The notes below the pieces were generated by a model that searched no databases, was not told where the DNA came from, and was given only the letters and a program-made list of their open reading frames with translations. A stretch of 64,000 nt of DNA, from NCBI GenBank assembly GCA_015055745.1, contig SVHS01000005.1:1-64000 (forward strand), read 5' to 3'. Positions 42,800 through 49,287 of this stretch are shown here, piece after piece. Numbering within the stretch: position 1 is the stretch's first letter; each line of letters opens with the position of its first letter. Origin of the DNA: Clostridiales bacterium. Lineage in GTDB: Bacteria > Bacillota > Clostridia > Christensenellales > UBA1242. Both the position numbers and the translations under genes were made by a program.

Positions 42800-43081
42800 A
42801 TGCCAAGAGATTTTAAGAGTTTTGCAAAAGAAAATGAAAAAGTAATAAACGACAATAAAGATAAAGCAAATGAATATCAAGATATCCTCAATAAATACAA
42901 AAACATGGACAACAACGAACTTATGTCAAATCTTTTTAGCGAAGCGACCAAACTCAAAAAAGAAGGAAAACTAGACTCTCAGACTTTGTGTTCTTTGCAG
43001 TCTACACTATCACCATTTTTAAACACAGAACAACAAGAAATGTTGAAAAATTTGGTCAATGCTATAAATGAACAAAAATAA
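42800..43081 (+). CDS. Small helical conserved protein
   Basis: 93 aa with RBS (gaggtaatt-ATG); overlaps the subtilase start. Confidence 0.7.
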   Translation: MPRDFKSFAKENEKVINDNKDKANEYQDILNKYKNMDNNELMSNLFSEATKLKKEGKLDSQTLCSLQSTLSPFLNTEQQEMLKNLVNAINEQK

Positions 43082-44171
43082 AGTAAGTAATCAAATTTTA
43101 AATAAAGTTTCTACTTTTTCACTAAAAAATCATGAAAAAGTAATCATTTCCAGTGCAAATTTTAACAAAACAAAAAAATTTTTGGATTTTTATAAATACA
43201 AATATATTCCTTATCGATTCGCCAATTGTTTTTACTTGCTCGCAGATATGGACGATATCTCCATACTTTCTGAGCAGGAAAATATAGATTACATACATCA
43301 AGTAGCAGATGTACAAACTCAAGATCAAGAAAAAAACTTTATCCATTTAGACAAGATCACAGAGGGAAAATATTTGGGAAAAGGTCAAACGATTTGTTTT
43401 ATCGATACAGGCATTCACCCACATCTTGATTTTATTCTTCCTCGCAATAGAATCATAAAATTTATCGACTTGATCAATAATAAAAAGTATCCTTACGATG
43501 ATAACGGACATGGCACTTTTGTGGCAGGCATCGCATGCGGTAATGGGATATATGACAAGCAAAATACTGGATTTGCTCCACTTTCAAATATTATCGCAAT
43601 CAAGGCTTTAAATAAAAATGGTAATAGCGATAGTAATGTAATATTGGACGCCATGCAATGGGTGTATGAAAATCATAAAGTATACAACATATCCGTGGTG
43701 TGTATGAGCTTTGGAGCTGATGCAAATGCCAATCTTGACCCACTCTCTCGTGGCGCAGAAGCTCTGTGGGAAATAGGCATCACTGTGGTCGCCGCTGCAG
43801 GCAACAGCGGACCAGAAAAAAATAGTATTAAATCTCCAGGAAATAACCCCAATATTATCACGGTAGGCGCACTGGACATCAAGAACATGCAGACAGCAAA
43901 TTTTAGTAGCAGAGGTCCCACTATCTATGGACACAAGCCTGATCTGCTCGCGCCTGCAGTAGATATCACTTCTTGTAATAATCTCAATACACCTTACACT
44001 ATCATGAGTGGCACTAGTGTAGCCACTCCGATCATAGCAGGTATATGCGCAGACATTAAAAGTAGAAATCCAAAACTGACTAATAATGAAATAAAAAACT
44101 TCCTACTCTCTCATTGCACGAAGATCACAGGTGACATCGACACAGAGGGAGCTGGTTATTTGAATTTTTGA
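43068..44171 (+). CDS. Subtilisin-like serine protease (S8), no evident signal peptide
   Basis: D: CFIDTGIHPH; H: NGHGTFVAGI; S: SGTSVATPIIAG. Confidence 0.95.
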   Translation: MNKNKVSNQILNKVSTFSLKNHEKVIISSANFNKTKKFLDFYKYKYIPYRFANCFYLLADMDDISILSEQENIDYIHQVADVQTQDQEKNFIHLDKITEGKYLGKGQTICFIDTGIHPHLDFILPRNRIIKFIDLINNKKYPYDDNGHGTFVAGIACGNGIYDKQNTGFAPLSNIIAIKALNKNGNSDSNVILDAMQWVYENHKVYNISVVCMSFGADANANLDPLSRGAEALWEIGITVVAAAGNSGPEKNSIKSPGNNPNIITVGALDIKNMQTANFSSRGPTIYGHKPDLLAPAVDITSCNNLNTPYTIMSGTSVATPIIAGICADIKSRNPKLTNNEIKNFLLSHCTKITGDIDTEGAGYLNF

Positions 44172-44849: not shown

Positions 44850-44891
44850 TATACTAAGACAAACAAAAAAGGAAGCTCATCTTCCTTTTTT
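44850..44891. terminator. Bidirectional terminator
   Basis: AAAAAAGGAAG/CTTCCTTTTTT. Confidence 0.8.
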
Positions 44892-44895
44892 ATTT

Positions 44896-47370
44896 TTATT
44901 CACTAGGTTTGGTCAAGAAAATCAATTTATTTTCTTTACAATCCACCAAGACTATATTACCTTTTAAAATCTCTCCACGAAGCATTCTATCAGCCAATTC
45001 ATCTTCTATTTTGCTAGTGATCAATCTTTTCATTGGCCTTGCTCCAAAGTCATCATTTGTGCCATTTTTTACAAGGTAATTTAAAGTAGATGTAGTGAAC
45101 TTTAACTCTACTCCACTTTGTTTTAGATTTTTATTCAAGTCAGCTAACATTTTCTTAGCGATATCTTTCAAAACTTGTGGTGAAAGCCTGTTGAAATTTA
45201 CAATATTGTCGATACGGTTGATGATCTCTGGCTTGAAATATTTTTTGAGCTCACTAAGCATCATCTGAGATTTATCTTCGTCGTCATTTTTCTCATTGAA
45301 ACCAAGACTAACATTCTTTTTATTCAATTTGTCACTACCGATATTTGATGTCAAAATAATGATAGTATTTTTAAAGCTAACGATTTTACCATGACTGTCT
45401 GTAAGTCTGCCATCGTCCAAGATTTGAAGTAGCATATTAAATACTTCTGGGTGAGCTTTTTCTATCTCATCAAATAAGACTACGCTATATGGTTTTCTCC
45501 TTACCTGCTCGGTCAATTGACCTCCGTCATCAAAACCCACATATCCCGGAGGACTACCAATGAGCTTTGACACACTGTGAGCTTCCATAAATTCACTCAT
45601 GTCAAGACGAATGATTTTATTTTCATCATCAAACAACGCTTCTGCCAAAGCTTTGCTCAATTCGGTCTTACCGACACCTGTAGGTCCAAGGAACAAGAAA
45701 CTACCTATCGGACGCTTTGGATCTCGGATACCGATACGGCTACGTCTGATTGCTTTTGCCACTTTCTCCACTGCCTCATCTTGTCCTTTTACTCTCTCGG
45801 TCAGAGTTTTTTCTAGATTGAGGAGTTTTTCCGCTTCACCCTCTGTGAGCTTTGTGAGAGGAATATTCGTCCATTTGCTGATCACTTCTGCCACATCATT
45901 TTCTGTGATGACAGCATTGGTCTGATCTGCGCTGACTGGTAGAGATTTTTGTCTATCAATCTCATCTTTTATCTGAGTGATTTTATCTCTTAGTTTACCA
46001 GCCTTTTCAAAATCTTCTTGGTTGACAGCGTCTTCTTTCTCAGCCTCAAGCTTTACAAGTTTTGCTTTCAAAGACTTTATCTCAGTGCTATCATAGTTTG
46101 TCTTGACTTTTGCTCTACTAGATGCCTCATCGATAAGATCAATTGCTTTGTCTGGCAGACTCCTATCTTGGATATACCTATCTGACAATGTGGCAGCAGC
46201 TTTGATAGCCTCATCTGTAATCTTTACTTTGTGGAACGCTTCGTATGAATCTTTAAGCCCTGTCAAGATAGCAATAGTCTGCTCGACTGTAGGCGGATCT
46301 ACTGTGATAGGCTGGAACCTTCGCTCCAAGGCTTTATCTTTTTCAATATATTTTCTATATTCATCTGTAGTGGTAGCGCCGATAGTCTGCATTTCTCCTC
46401 TAGCAAGATACGGCTTGAGCATATCTGCTGGATTGGTCTCACCTTTGTCACTTCCGACTTGAGCTAAAGTGTGTATCTCGTCTATAAATACTATGATATC
46501 TCTATTAGAAGTAATCATCTCGATAGCATTTTTTAGCTTTTCTTCCATGCTACCACGATATTTTGTACCAGCCATCAATCCACCAATATCTAGACTATAA
46601 ATGGTCTTATTTTTTAGCAACGCAGGCACATCACCAGAAACTATTCTTCTAGCTAATCCCTCTACTACAGCGGTCTTACCCACACCTGCTTCACCGATAA
46701 GGACTGGATTGTTTTTTGTCTTTCTACATAGTATCTCTATCATGCGCTCTATCTCTGAATCTCTGCCGATAATTGGATCTATTTTTCCATTTTTTGCTCG
46801 TAGAGTCAAATCACTACCCATATCAAGCAATTCTTGAGGCAATTCACTCACATATGCGTCTTGTTTGCTTGCCTGAGGATTCTTTTGTTCATGATTTTTC
46901 AAATTACCTACCTGTACAAATCCATCAGTGTCAAAGCTTGAGTCATTGGCATTATTTATAATGCTAATAGCTTTGTTTCTCATCTCATATACATTGAGCT
47001 TTAATACCCCTGCCAAAATATTGATAGCAAAGCTATCATCTTGGCTAAGCATCGCCACCAACAAATGCTCAGTAGATATATACGCAGAGTGTGTCTTTTT
47101 GGCCACACTATTGGCTATCATGAGCATCTCTTTTACACGCGGAGTGAGCTCGACTACACTTGACGGGATACCGCCACTACCGACATTATTTAAAATCTCT
47201 TGGATAATATCTGGACTCACACGATACGCTTGGAGCAATTTTTTTGATTTGCTCTCCACTTTGCTAAGTGCATACAAAATATGCTCAGTGCCCACCTCAT
47301 TTGTCCTATGCGCAGCAAATTGTGATGCCACCTGCAAACATTTGTTTGCTAAATCTGTAAGATTGTACAT
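44896..47370 (-). CDS. clpC: ATP-dependent Clp protease ATPase ClpC
   Basis: Two AAA domains (GEAGVGKTA; GPTGVGKTEL), UVR segment, Clp N-domain repeats (EVGTEHILYAL, YISTEHLLVAM). Confidence 0.97.
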   Translation of the reverse strand: MYNLTDLANKCLQVASQFAAHRTNEVGTEHILYALSKVESKSKKLLQAYRVSPDIIQEILNNVGSGGIPSSVVELTPRVKEMLMIANSVAKKTHSAYISTEHLLVAMLSQDDSFAINILAGVLKLNVYEMRNKAISIINNANDSSFDTDGFVQVGNLKNHEQKNPQASKQDAYVSELPQELLDMGSDLTLRAKNGKIDPIIGRDSEIERMIEILCRKTKNNPVLIGEAGVGKTAVVEGLARRIVSGDVPALLKNKTIYSLDIGGLMAGTKYRGSMEEKLKNAIEMITSNRDIIVFIDEIHTLAQVGSDKGETNPADMLKPYLARGEMQTIGATTTDEYRKYIEKDKALERRFQPITVDPPTVEQTIAILTGLKDSYEAFHKVKITDEAIKAAATLSDRYIQDRSLPDKAIDLIDEASSRAKVKTNYDSTEIKSLKAKLVKLEAEKEDAVNQEDFEKAGKLRDKITQIKDEIDRQKSLPVSADQTNAVITENDVAEVISKWTNIPLTKLTEGEAEKLLNLEKTLTERVKGQDEAVEKVAKAIRRSRIGIRDPKRPIGSFLFLGPTGVGKTELSKALAEALFDDENKIIRLDMSEFMEAHSVSKLIGSPPGYVGFDDGGQLTEQVRRKPYSVVLFDEIEKAHPEVFNMLLQILDDGRLTDSHGKIVSFKNTIIILTSNIGSDKLNKKNVSLGFNEKNDDEDKSQMMLSELKKYFKPEIINRIDNIVNFNRLSPQVLKDIAKKMLADLNKNLKQSGVELKFTTSTLNYLVKNGTNDDFGARPMKRLITSKIEDELADRMLRGEILKGNIVLVDCKENKLIFLTKPSE

Positions 47371-47372
47371 AA

Positions 47373-48182
47373 TTATTCTCCTTTTAAGATAGATTTCACT
47401 TTGCTAGCCAAATCTTTCAGTTCACTTTGTGAGATAAATTCTTGATTTTGATCTTGTGTCAATTTTTGTAGCTTGTTTATAGTCTCTACTTTGATATTTG
47501 TAAGCCCTAAATTGATGCCATTTCTAACATGAATGATTAGCTTATTTAATTCATCAAAAGTCAATATATATGCACTACTTAATATCGCGATACTTCTACA
47601 CATCTTATCCATAAGCTCATCATGTTTGTTTAAATCTAGTATCTTAATACTTTCGACTTCTAAATCTTGCAATTTTTGGATAGTTTTTTCAAAATCTTCA
47701 CGTATTTGGTTTTCACCCATGCCTAGATTACACATTGTAGAAATCTTGTACACACTTGGAAGCTTTGTTTCTATCAAAACATAACCTAGCTTAGCTAGAT
47801 TTTGTCTAAGCTGATCCATTTTACCCAAAACTTTGATAGAGTCTAGGCACATCTCACACTCAAGACGCACGCCTGCACCTATTTTTTTGATATCACTCAT
47901 GAGATAACCATATTCATCACTGTATGCAAAGCTTATCTTGTGAGAAAGATAATCTGCTACTTCTTTTGCTTGCTCAAATGCTGTATTGGAATAGCCATCT
48001 ACTCTAGACTCGATAGTCAAATGCTCTCCATCAAAGAGTGTAATATGAGTACTCTTTCCGTCCAATAACTTCTCTATTTTTTCTTTGATCTCTTGCTTTT
48101 CTTCATCTTTTAGCTTAGGCACAAATTTGTAGTCTTTTAGATTTCTAAAGATACTTACTTTTGTAGATAATACATTATTCAT
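47373..48182 (-). CDS. mcsB: McsB-like protein with degenerate guanidino-kinase active site
   Basis: Position mcsA-X-clpC; alignable scaffold AYSDEYGYLMSDIKKIGAGVRLECEM..., GINLGLTNI...; catalytic motifs replaced. Confidence 0.85.
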   Translation of the reverse strand: MNNVLSTKVSIFRNLKDYKFVPKLKDEEKQEIKEKIEKLLDGKSTHITLFDGEHLTIESRVDGYSNTAFEQAKEVADYLSHKISFAYSDEYGYLMSDIKKIGAGVRLECEMCLDSIKVLGKMDQLRQNLAKLGYVLIETKLPSVYKISTMCNLGMGENQIREDFEKTIQKLQDLEVESIKILDLNKHDELMDKMCRSIAILSSAYILTFDELNKLIIHVRNGINLGLTNIKVETINKLQKLTQDQNQEFISQSELKDLASKVKSILKGE

Positions 48183-48675
48183 TTGCACTCTCCAATTTTA
48201 CGATTTGTTTTTTAATCTTTGCCGCGTCTTCATATCTTTCTTCTTGTACTGCAAGCTTCATCTCAGCTCTGAGAGCTTTGATTTTTTCCTCAGGTGTTTG
48301 TTTCTTTGCTCTAGCATTAGATTTTGTACCAATCGCATCTTGCTGATGCTTATCAAAAGGGGCTATCCTTTTTACTATTTTGGCTATCTCTTCCCTAAAC
48401 GCTTCATAACAGTTTGGACAACCAAATCTTCCGCTAGACTTAAACTCTCTAAGACTAGTCTTGCATACAGGACATGATACATTTTCCACTTTTTCGAATG
48501 GCAAAAAATCAGCAAAACTCATAAACATATCATCAAAAAGACTAGTAGGAGAAGTATTGAAGACTCCTTCTTTTATAGCACATTCACGACATAAGCTAGT
48601 CTTTTGACTCACTCCGTTTACTATCAAAGTAGAACGATACACACTAGGACGACCACATTTATTACAATTTTCCAT
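48175..48675 (-). CDS. mcsA: McsA, zinc-finger activator/UVR protein
   Basis: CNKCGRP...CRECA, CPVCKTS...CPNCYEAF, C-terminal UVR domain. Confidence 0.92.
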   Translation of the reverse strand: MENCNKCGRPSVYRSTLIVNGVSQKTSLCRECAIKEGVFNTSPTSLFDDMFMSFADFLPFEKVENVSCPVCKTSLREFKSSGRFGCPNCYEAFREEIAKIVKRIAPFDKHQQDAIGTKSNARAKKQTPEEKIKALRAEMKLAVQEERYEDAAKIKKQIVKLESANE

Positions 48676-48684
48676 ATTTCCTCC

Positions 48685-49152
48685 TTATTTTCTATCCTCT
48701 AATTTCATCAATTCTATTATAACCTGTCTCAATATATTTGCTCTCAGCTTATTATCCATATTTATAGGATTATTTAGTGCTTTTGCGCTAATTGTACTCT
48801 TTATCAACTCACATTCTCTCTCACTGAGAAGCTTCCTCTCGCATAAATGAGACAAAATCTGATTTGCTTGCAGAATACTAATCGGCTCATCACATAATAC
48901 CAAGGCATTTTTTAAAAAATTGTTGTCACTATCTTGCACTCTCAGCACTTTGATATACCCACTACCACCTCTTTGACTCTCTACTACAAAACCTCGATTG
49001 ACAGTAAAGCGAGTATTTAAAACATAATTTATCTGACTAGGCACACAAGAAAAGAATTTTGCCAAATCATTTCTACTTAGCTCAATAAACTCATCTTCAT
49101 CTAAGCTAGACATAATAAATTCTTCTATCAAGTCGCTAATACTCCTACTCAT
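48685..49152 (-). CDS. ctsR: Transcriptional repressor CtsR
   Basis: SDLIEEFI...FSCVPSQINYVLNTRFTVNRGFVVESQRGGSGYIKV. Confidence 0.95.
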   Translation of the reverse strand: MSRSISDLIEEFIMSSLDEDEFIELSRNDLAKFFSCVPSQINYVLNTRFTVNRGFVVESQRGGSGYIKVLRVQDSDNNFLKNALVLCDEPISILQANQILSHLCERKLLSERECELIKSTISAKALNNPINMDNKLRANILRQVIIELMKLEDRK

Positions 49153-49171: not shown

Positions 49172-49188
49172 TTTGACTATCTTTGACC
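49172..49188 (-). promoter_or_regulatory. CtsR operator
   Basis: Minus strand GGTCAAAGATAGTCAAA, a direct heptad repeat matching RGTCAAANANRGTCAAA just upstream of ctsR. Confidence 0.9.
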
Positions 49189-49287
49189 TTTGTAATAATT
49201 ATATTCATATATTATCCATTTGTCAAGAGAAAAATGCAAAAATTTATTTTTTACAAAAAAAATTTCACAACGGGTGTGAAATTTATA

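Follow-up and report, generated by a model that had tools for sequence, protein, structure and literature searches.

What does McsB do in a bacterium whose copy has lost the residues of the kinase active site? McsB tags damaged proteins for destruction, and a YwlE-type phosphatase removes the pArg tag. In a member of Candidatus Onthoplasma, a genus of gut bacteria with tiny genomes, a preliminary description of the DNA had proposed a pseudo-McsB that has lost its arginine-kinase site within an intact ctsR-mcsA-mcsB-clpC operon. Alignments, a perfect CtsR box and the order of the operon bear this proposal out. Our analysis suggests that the protein most likely serves ClpC and CtsR as an adaptor that is regulated by McsA and does not depend on kinase activity.

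The operon and its altered McsB

The operon lies on the minus strand of the window, by which we mean the whole stretch of 64,000 nucleotides analysed here, taken from a genome of 0.876 Mb that is 96.7% complete. It begins with a predicted sigma-A-type promoter (TTGACA-17-TATAAT, 49198..49226, 12/12 consensus match). The CtsR operator, described earlier as retained, is predicted between this promoter and ctsR as an exact consensus match, GGTCAAAGATAGTCAAA (49172..49188), and is the sole site in the window with fewer than three mismatches. The genes that follow encode the heat-shock repressor CtsR (48685..49152; PF05848 107 bits, PF17727 46 bits), the two-zinc-finger McsB partner McsA (48175..48675; NF053706 E 5e-23, under its equivalog cut-off), the pseudo-McsB (47373..48182; 269 aa from an ATG start, the mechanical ORF opening instead at GTG 48188) and the AAA+ unfoldase ClpC (44896..47370), recognized by its Clp_N, AAA_2 and ClpB_D2-small domains and its operon position. 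A pattern scan predicts a terminator-like hairpin, with no strand assigned, 3' of clpC (44865..44891). The genes mcsA and mcsB overlap by 8 bases and 2 bases separate mcsB from clpC, so that mcsB holds the place between mcsA and clpC in the ctsR operon that is expected of a McsB homologue. ClpP is also encoded in this genome, in which our search found no MecA. Just past the end of the operon, on the opposite strand, lies a subtilisin-like serine protease ORF (43068-44171), recognized by eye from a GTSVATP motif.

Both its sequence and its predicted fold identify the ORF at 47373-48182(-) as a McsB homologue. HMM and structure alignments, proposed as a check in the preliminary description, matched McsB families and the McsB fold and found the catalytic residues lost. 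The protein matches PF00217 with 55.6 bits (E 6e-15, cut-off 22.4) and the McsB NCBIfams with E-values of 9e-33 (NF002194) and 5e-31, both matches lying far under their equivalog cut-offs (385 bits for NF002194), and McsB chains rank first in a PDB sequence search. AlphaFold2 models of the window protein and of a full-length congener (pLDDT 80.8 and 84.4) both show the two-domain McsB fold, with B. subtilis and Geobacillus McsB as their top PDB structure matches (TMq 0.76–0.79); the loop of the former Cys segment is of low confidence in both. It is the single PF00217 match in the genome, and the PF00217 profile search thus found neither another protein of this family nor the second canonical McsB whose existence had been raised as a point to check.

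Substitutions were read after aligning the protein to canonical relatives and to McsB chains of Geobacillus/Bacillus; residue numbers follow the B. subtilis McsB sequence, which agrees with the PDB alignments. The window protein carries R29K, R31S, E120D, E121G, R125T, C167D, N170K and R207I. On the minus strand, the N-terminal phosphate-binding motif, canonically SSRIRLARN, has degenerated to STKVSIFRN (48141..48167; R29K and R31S, with R34 kept), LNEEDH is LFDGEH (48021..48038; E121G) and the former catalytic-Cys segment, canonically SCPTNVGTGLR, reads SDIKKIGAGVR (47865..47897; C167D at 47892-47894). These three changes and the missing RDxxRA had all been described and are all real in the alignments; the C-terminal RDxxRA pArg-receptor segment is deleted genus-wide. 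Absent from the earlier list is the deletion of the guanidino lid loop that carries R207 and E212, of which a remnant without RGxYGEGS persists at 47751..47774(-). Each of the substitutions R29K, R31K, R34K, R125K, R176K, R207K and R337K alone abolishes the in vitro kinase activity of B. subtilis McsB (PMC7235348). Among these seven arginines, the window protein retains R34 and R176 only, with Lys at 29, Ser at 31, Thr at 125 and Ile at 207. The features by which an active kinase is recognized, namely the NEEDH and lid glutamates, the essential arginines, C167 and RDxxRA, are accordingly not those of the window McsB. Judged from its residues, the McsB of Candidatus Onthoplasma can almost certainly no longer transfer phosphate to arginine.

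We did not treat the Cys as the key marker. Loss of C167 alone is not diagnostic, because Ser occurs in otherwise complete sites accompanied by a phosphatase: in g34, g28 and g31, residue 167 is Ser, all other scored catalytic residues are intact and a PF01451 phosphatase is present. In g34 (L012, L059, L110 and others), Cys is replaced by Ser throughout the genus while the other scored residues and the phosphatase are kept, and its McsB is likely to be an active Ser-type enzyme.

The protein is shorter than B. subtilis McsB, as stated earlier, although the missing residues number ~94 rather than ~80. About 55 are missing genus-wide. A codon alignment with congeners places a further in-frame loss of ~37 codons, confined to the window genome, between codons 43 and 44 (48051..48056, minus strand); this loss may be real or may be an assembly error.

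Conservation and selection within the genus

All 17 Candidatus Onthoplasma genomes in the family sample encode one low-scoring McsB each, in an open frame. A second collection held 34 loci, four of them McsB of distant Bacillota and 30 from congeners; in one of the latter the contig ends within the locus. The named collection represents these congeners by MAGs or assemblies of uncultured organisms, and the two congeners that carry species names both belong to Candidatus Onthoplasma, Christensenellales. Signs of ongoing pseudogenisation had been suggested as something to look for in relatives; the frame, reported as intact in the window, is open throughout the genus loci.

The altered site is shared by the genus. 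In a residue alignment of the window with 26 congeners (27 rows in all), N119F, D122E, E159D and R161Y are fixed in 27/27, and R34, H123 and R272 are invariant. C167 is replaced by D in 16 rows and N in 11; Arg occurs at positions 31 and 125 in none of the 27, R207 is absent in 26, and E121 persists in 8 rows and gives way to G or D in 19. Close to the lost Cys lies the McsA-docking loop YSDEYGY (47904..47924, minus strand), which corresponds to Y147-Y153 of the S. aureus McsA-McsB docking interface described in a review (PMC12467219). Positions 159 and 161–164 of this loop are fixed or nearly so in the 27 rows, and the motif is nearly invariant in the genus, yet the Cys four residues further on has been lost. 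The partner is equally conserved: the zinc fingers of McsA remain, as had been claimed, and none of its eight zinc Cys varies in 30/30 congeners, the window among them.

Clade-wide conservation and dN/dS had been put forward as checks, and both favour retention. By the Nei-Gojobori method, mcsB dN/dS is 0.03–0.14 in all but one of the eight closest usable congeneric pairs, the exception being a nearly identical pair with a value of 0; the window mcsB, which has no close relative, is not among these pairs, so that its own branch lies outside the estimate. For the same pairs, ClpC gives about 0.01–0.04 and McsA 0.01–0.10; pairs with the distant L042 were left out, their dS being saturated or unreliable. 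The median McsB/ClpC distance ratio is about 3.9 in the genus versus 0.9–2.4 in canonical genera, and McsB thus evolves faster relative to ClpC here, which indicates that constraint is relaxed. Given that the frame is always open and dN/dS does not exceed 0.14, we regard mcsB as encoding a maintained pseudokinase rather than as a dying gene, and the close pairs of the genus do combine lost catalytic residues with purifying selection.

Loss of the phosphatase and of mcsB across the family

A profile search that detected PF01451 in B. subtilis and ten others, used as controls, found this YwlE-type phosphatase in 0/34 Candidatus Onthoplasma genomes, so that the cognate phosphatase by which pArg signalling is recognized in a genome is missing from all of them. 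With the genus left without a YwlE-type eraser of pArg, these bacteria have probably ceased to use pArg as a degradation mark.

The same association was found well beyond the genus. In a family survey, we scored nine catalytic positions in 107 genomes with McsB, taking 8–9/9 residues as canonical and 6/9 or fewer as degenerate, against the presence of PF01451. Canonical McsB was accompanied by PF01451 in 70 genomes and lacked it in 3, versus 1 and 33 for degenerate McsB. In the high-quality subset (at least 90% complete, at most 5% contaminated), 48/48 canonical and 0/29 degenerate genomes had the phosphatase, active-site state and PF01451 being concordant in 77/77, and removal of the window's genus left 48 with and 0 without among canonical genomes and 0 with and 12 without among degenerate ones. 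Fisher tests of the association, which take no account of shared ancestry, give p 1e-12 to 1e-23. A ClpC tree of 117 genomes places degeneration at six origins, four of them forced by well-supported branches; the phosphatase changes in the same way in 4/4 independent pairs (p 0.125), a test that falls short of significance because the events are too few. The pArg writer and eraser have been dismantled together, while the scaffold persists.

The sole degenerate genome with PF01451, G140, was rejected as a counter-example, since the motif of its phosphatase, CHGNICRS, is tyrosine-type and contamination of the genome amounts to 7%. We read 20 phosphatase loci. Those of G140 and G125 belong to the tyrosine type; in the other 18, the position that marks YwlE is Thr in 14 and Ile, Val or Ser in 3, and one has no motif. 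Locus L138 (G127, g19) encodes a McsB with R125K, R176K and R207K and with catalytic Glu and Cys intact, in a genome with no PF01451 phosphatase, and could possibly represent an intermediate at an early stage of kinase loss. Genera g45 and g119 of family f4, in the same order, again encode degenerate McsB (L183-L188); their genomes measure 1.6–2.5 Mb, and degeneration is therefore not confined to very small genomes. The link is looser in f4: four of the six degenerate genomes lack PF01451 and two have a divergent one, and several genomes with high-scoring McsB have only tyrosine-type motifs or no match.

Other genera have lost mcsB altogether. Sampled genomes of g15, g41, g27, g13 and g5 (L147-L158) contain ctsR-mcsA-clpC without mcsB, and those of g17, g23 and g3 contain ctsR-clpC only, so that one family holds the canonical, pseudokinase, McsA-only and bare states side by side. 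A hidden mcsB in g41 was considered, since the contigs of L093 and G106:C4 are equal in length, and rejected: mcsA runs directly into clpC, and L093 and G106:C4 share no 25-mers. Considering that McsA is kept without its kinase in L147-L158, it probably has an independent function. On the ClpC tree, g27 falls inside or beside the window's genus, which implies that the role of McsB is dispensable somewhere. In g11 (L048-L050), a degenerate McsB occurs with McsA and ClpC and no CtsR was detected, which points to clients other than CtsR and to a role there that would not be the control of CtsR.

These comparisons separate the suggestions made from the window alone. Retention as a non-catalytic protein is favoured by the single McsB, the genus-wide state, purifying selection, the preserved McsA-binding elements and the lack of PF01451. 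A pArg mark supplied from elsewhere finds no support, given that the eraser is missing and no other PF00217 protein was found. The EHIL/EHLL glutamates of ClpC, offered as a sign of pArg recognition, fail as evidence: most genera without McsB retain them too, and they are therefore uninformative on pArg.

A maintained scaffold and its relation to known systems

For the McsB of Candidatus Onthoplasma, we infer kinase inactivity, McsA binding and an adaptor or anti-repressor role. It is probable that this is a maintained pseudokinase, a McsB scaffold acting on CtsR and ClpC under McsA control as a kinase-independent adaptor. The protein retains the two-domain fold, the loop for docking McsA and the gene position flanked by mcsA and clpC; bound to McsA, its two-zinc-finger, thiol-sensing partner, it would be held in check near ClpC. 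Upon protein or thiol stress, McsB would be released from McsA and would help strip CtsR from DNA, or it could hand over CtsR, perhaps along with further clients, to ClpCP. Published work makes such a McsA-controlled scaffold the best-supported reading, given the kinase-independent role described for McsB (PMC7235348, PMC5506225): in thiol stress, McsA releases McsB, which strips CtsR from DNA with kinase activity prevented (PMC5506225). Against this reading, the ClpC adaptor function of B. subtilis McsB mostly requires kinase activity (PMC5506225).

A gene on its way out after the loss of pArg signalling, and kept temporarily, would also account for a McsB that evolves faster relative to ClpC than canonical McsB does, for the ~37 further codons missing from the window copy and for the absence of mcsB already seen in g27, g15, g41 and others. 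We consider such decay unlikely, since open frames in all genus loci and dN/dS values of at most 0.14 in close pairs are joined by derived residues that are fixed rather than drifting and by a conserved docking loop. The fixed residues could instead belong to a pocket that, with the YGYLMS loop, accepts another ligand or reaction: F119, E122-H123 and D/N167 are fixed or two-choice in 27/27 rows, and in established structures of canonical McsB the segments that hold them form the active site. However, the lid loop is deleted, the phosphate-binding arginines are lost, the Cys-segment loop has low confidence in both models and the conservation may stem from McsA docking alone. A new function of the pocket is thus quite unlikely, and similar doubt attaches to its extended form, a phosphagen-kinase fold that answers stress via McsA without arginine phosphorylation.

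Retention of mcsB solely for translational coupling of mcsA to clpC agrees with the 8-base overlap and the 2-base gap but is very improbable, because coupling would not keep amino-acid positions under purifying selection and g15 and g41 couple mcsA straight to clpC without mcsB. Persistence of pArg signalling, whether by a McsB active through an altered mechanism or by another kinase that makes pArg, would suit the intact CtsR, ClpC and McsA; we hold it to be extremely improbable, given the loss of residues at which one mutation suffices to inactivate B. subtilis McsB, the lack of a second PF00217 protein and of a PF01451 phosphatase in our searches and the ClpC EH glutamates kept elsewhere without McsB.

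The maintained-scaffold reading bears on a matter unsettled in B. subtilis, namely how far the role of McsB is separable from arginine phosphorylation. The family offers a natural experiment, repeated several times, in which loss of the kinase site goes with loss of the phosphatase; McsA, CtsR and ClpC remain, but lineages differ over the McsB scaffold, which some have kept for long and others have discarded. It supplies ready-made kinase-dead McsB proteins for dissecting adaptor function, gives an ordered view of the dismantling of a post-translational marking system and cautions that the presence of mcsB alone does not imply pArg signalling. Our literature search, largely outside subscription journals, found no published description of a natural pseudo-McsB or of its co-loss with YwlE.

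Among known systems, the McsB kinases of B. subtilis (6tv6), G. stearothermophilus (6fh1-3) and S. aureus (8gqd) share with the window protein the fold (TMq 0.69–0.79), the two-domain architecture, the McsA-docking loop and the operon position; unlike them, the window protein lacks the catalytic Glu and Cys, the set of phosphate-binding Arg and the lid loop, and its C-terminal pArg-receptor segment is deleted. Genera of the same family with canonical McsB and PF01451 (g9, g19, g34, g38-g42) have the same operon context in many cases but differ in keeping 8–9/9 site residues and in having a phosphatase, whose motif is mostly the YwlE-type Thr one (CTGNTCRS-like). The site is lost, as in the window, in the degenerate McsB of g11, g25, g32, three g19 genomes and, in another family, g45/g119. 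No YwlE-type phosphatase was found in these genomes, g119 having a divergent PF01451 protein; unlike in the window, other residues are lost and the C-terminal RA motif is often kept. On the ClpC tree, the degenerate McsB of g11, g25, g32 and the three g19 genomes has separate origins. The closest laboratory counterpart is the kinase-dead B. subtilis McsB C167S, whose adaptor effect on the turnover of MgsR is partly preserved (PMC7235348). Both proteins are expected to lack kinase function, but the state of the window McsB is natural and genus-wide, involves many more losses and is accompanied by the absence of a YwlE-type phosphatase.
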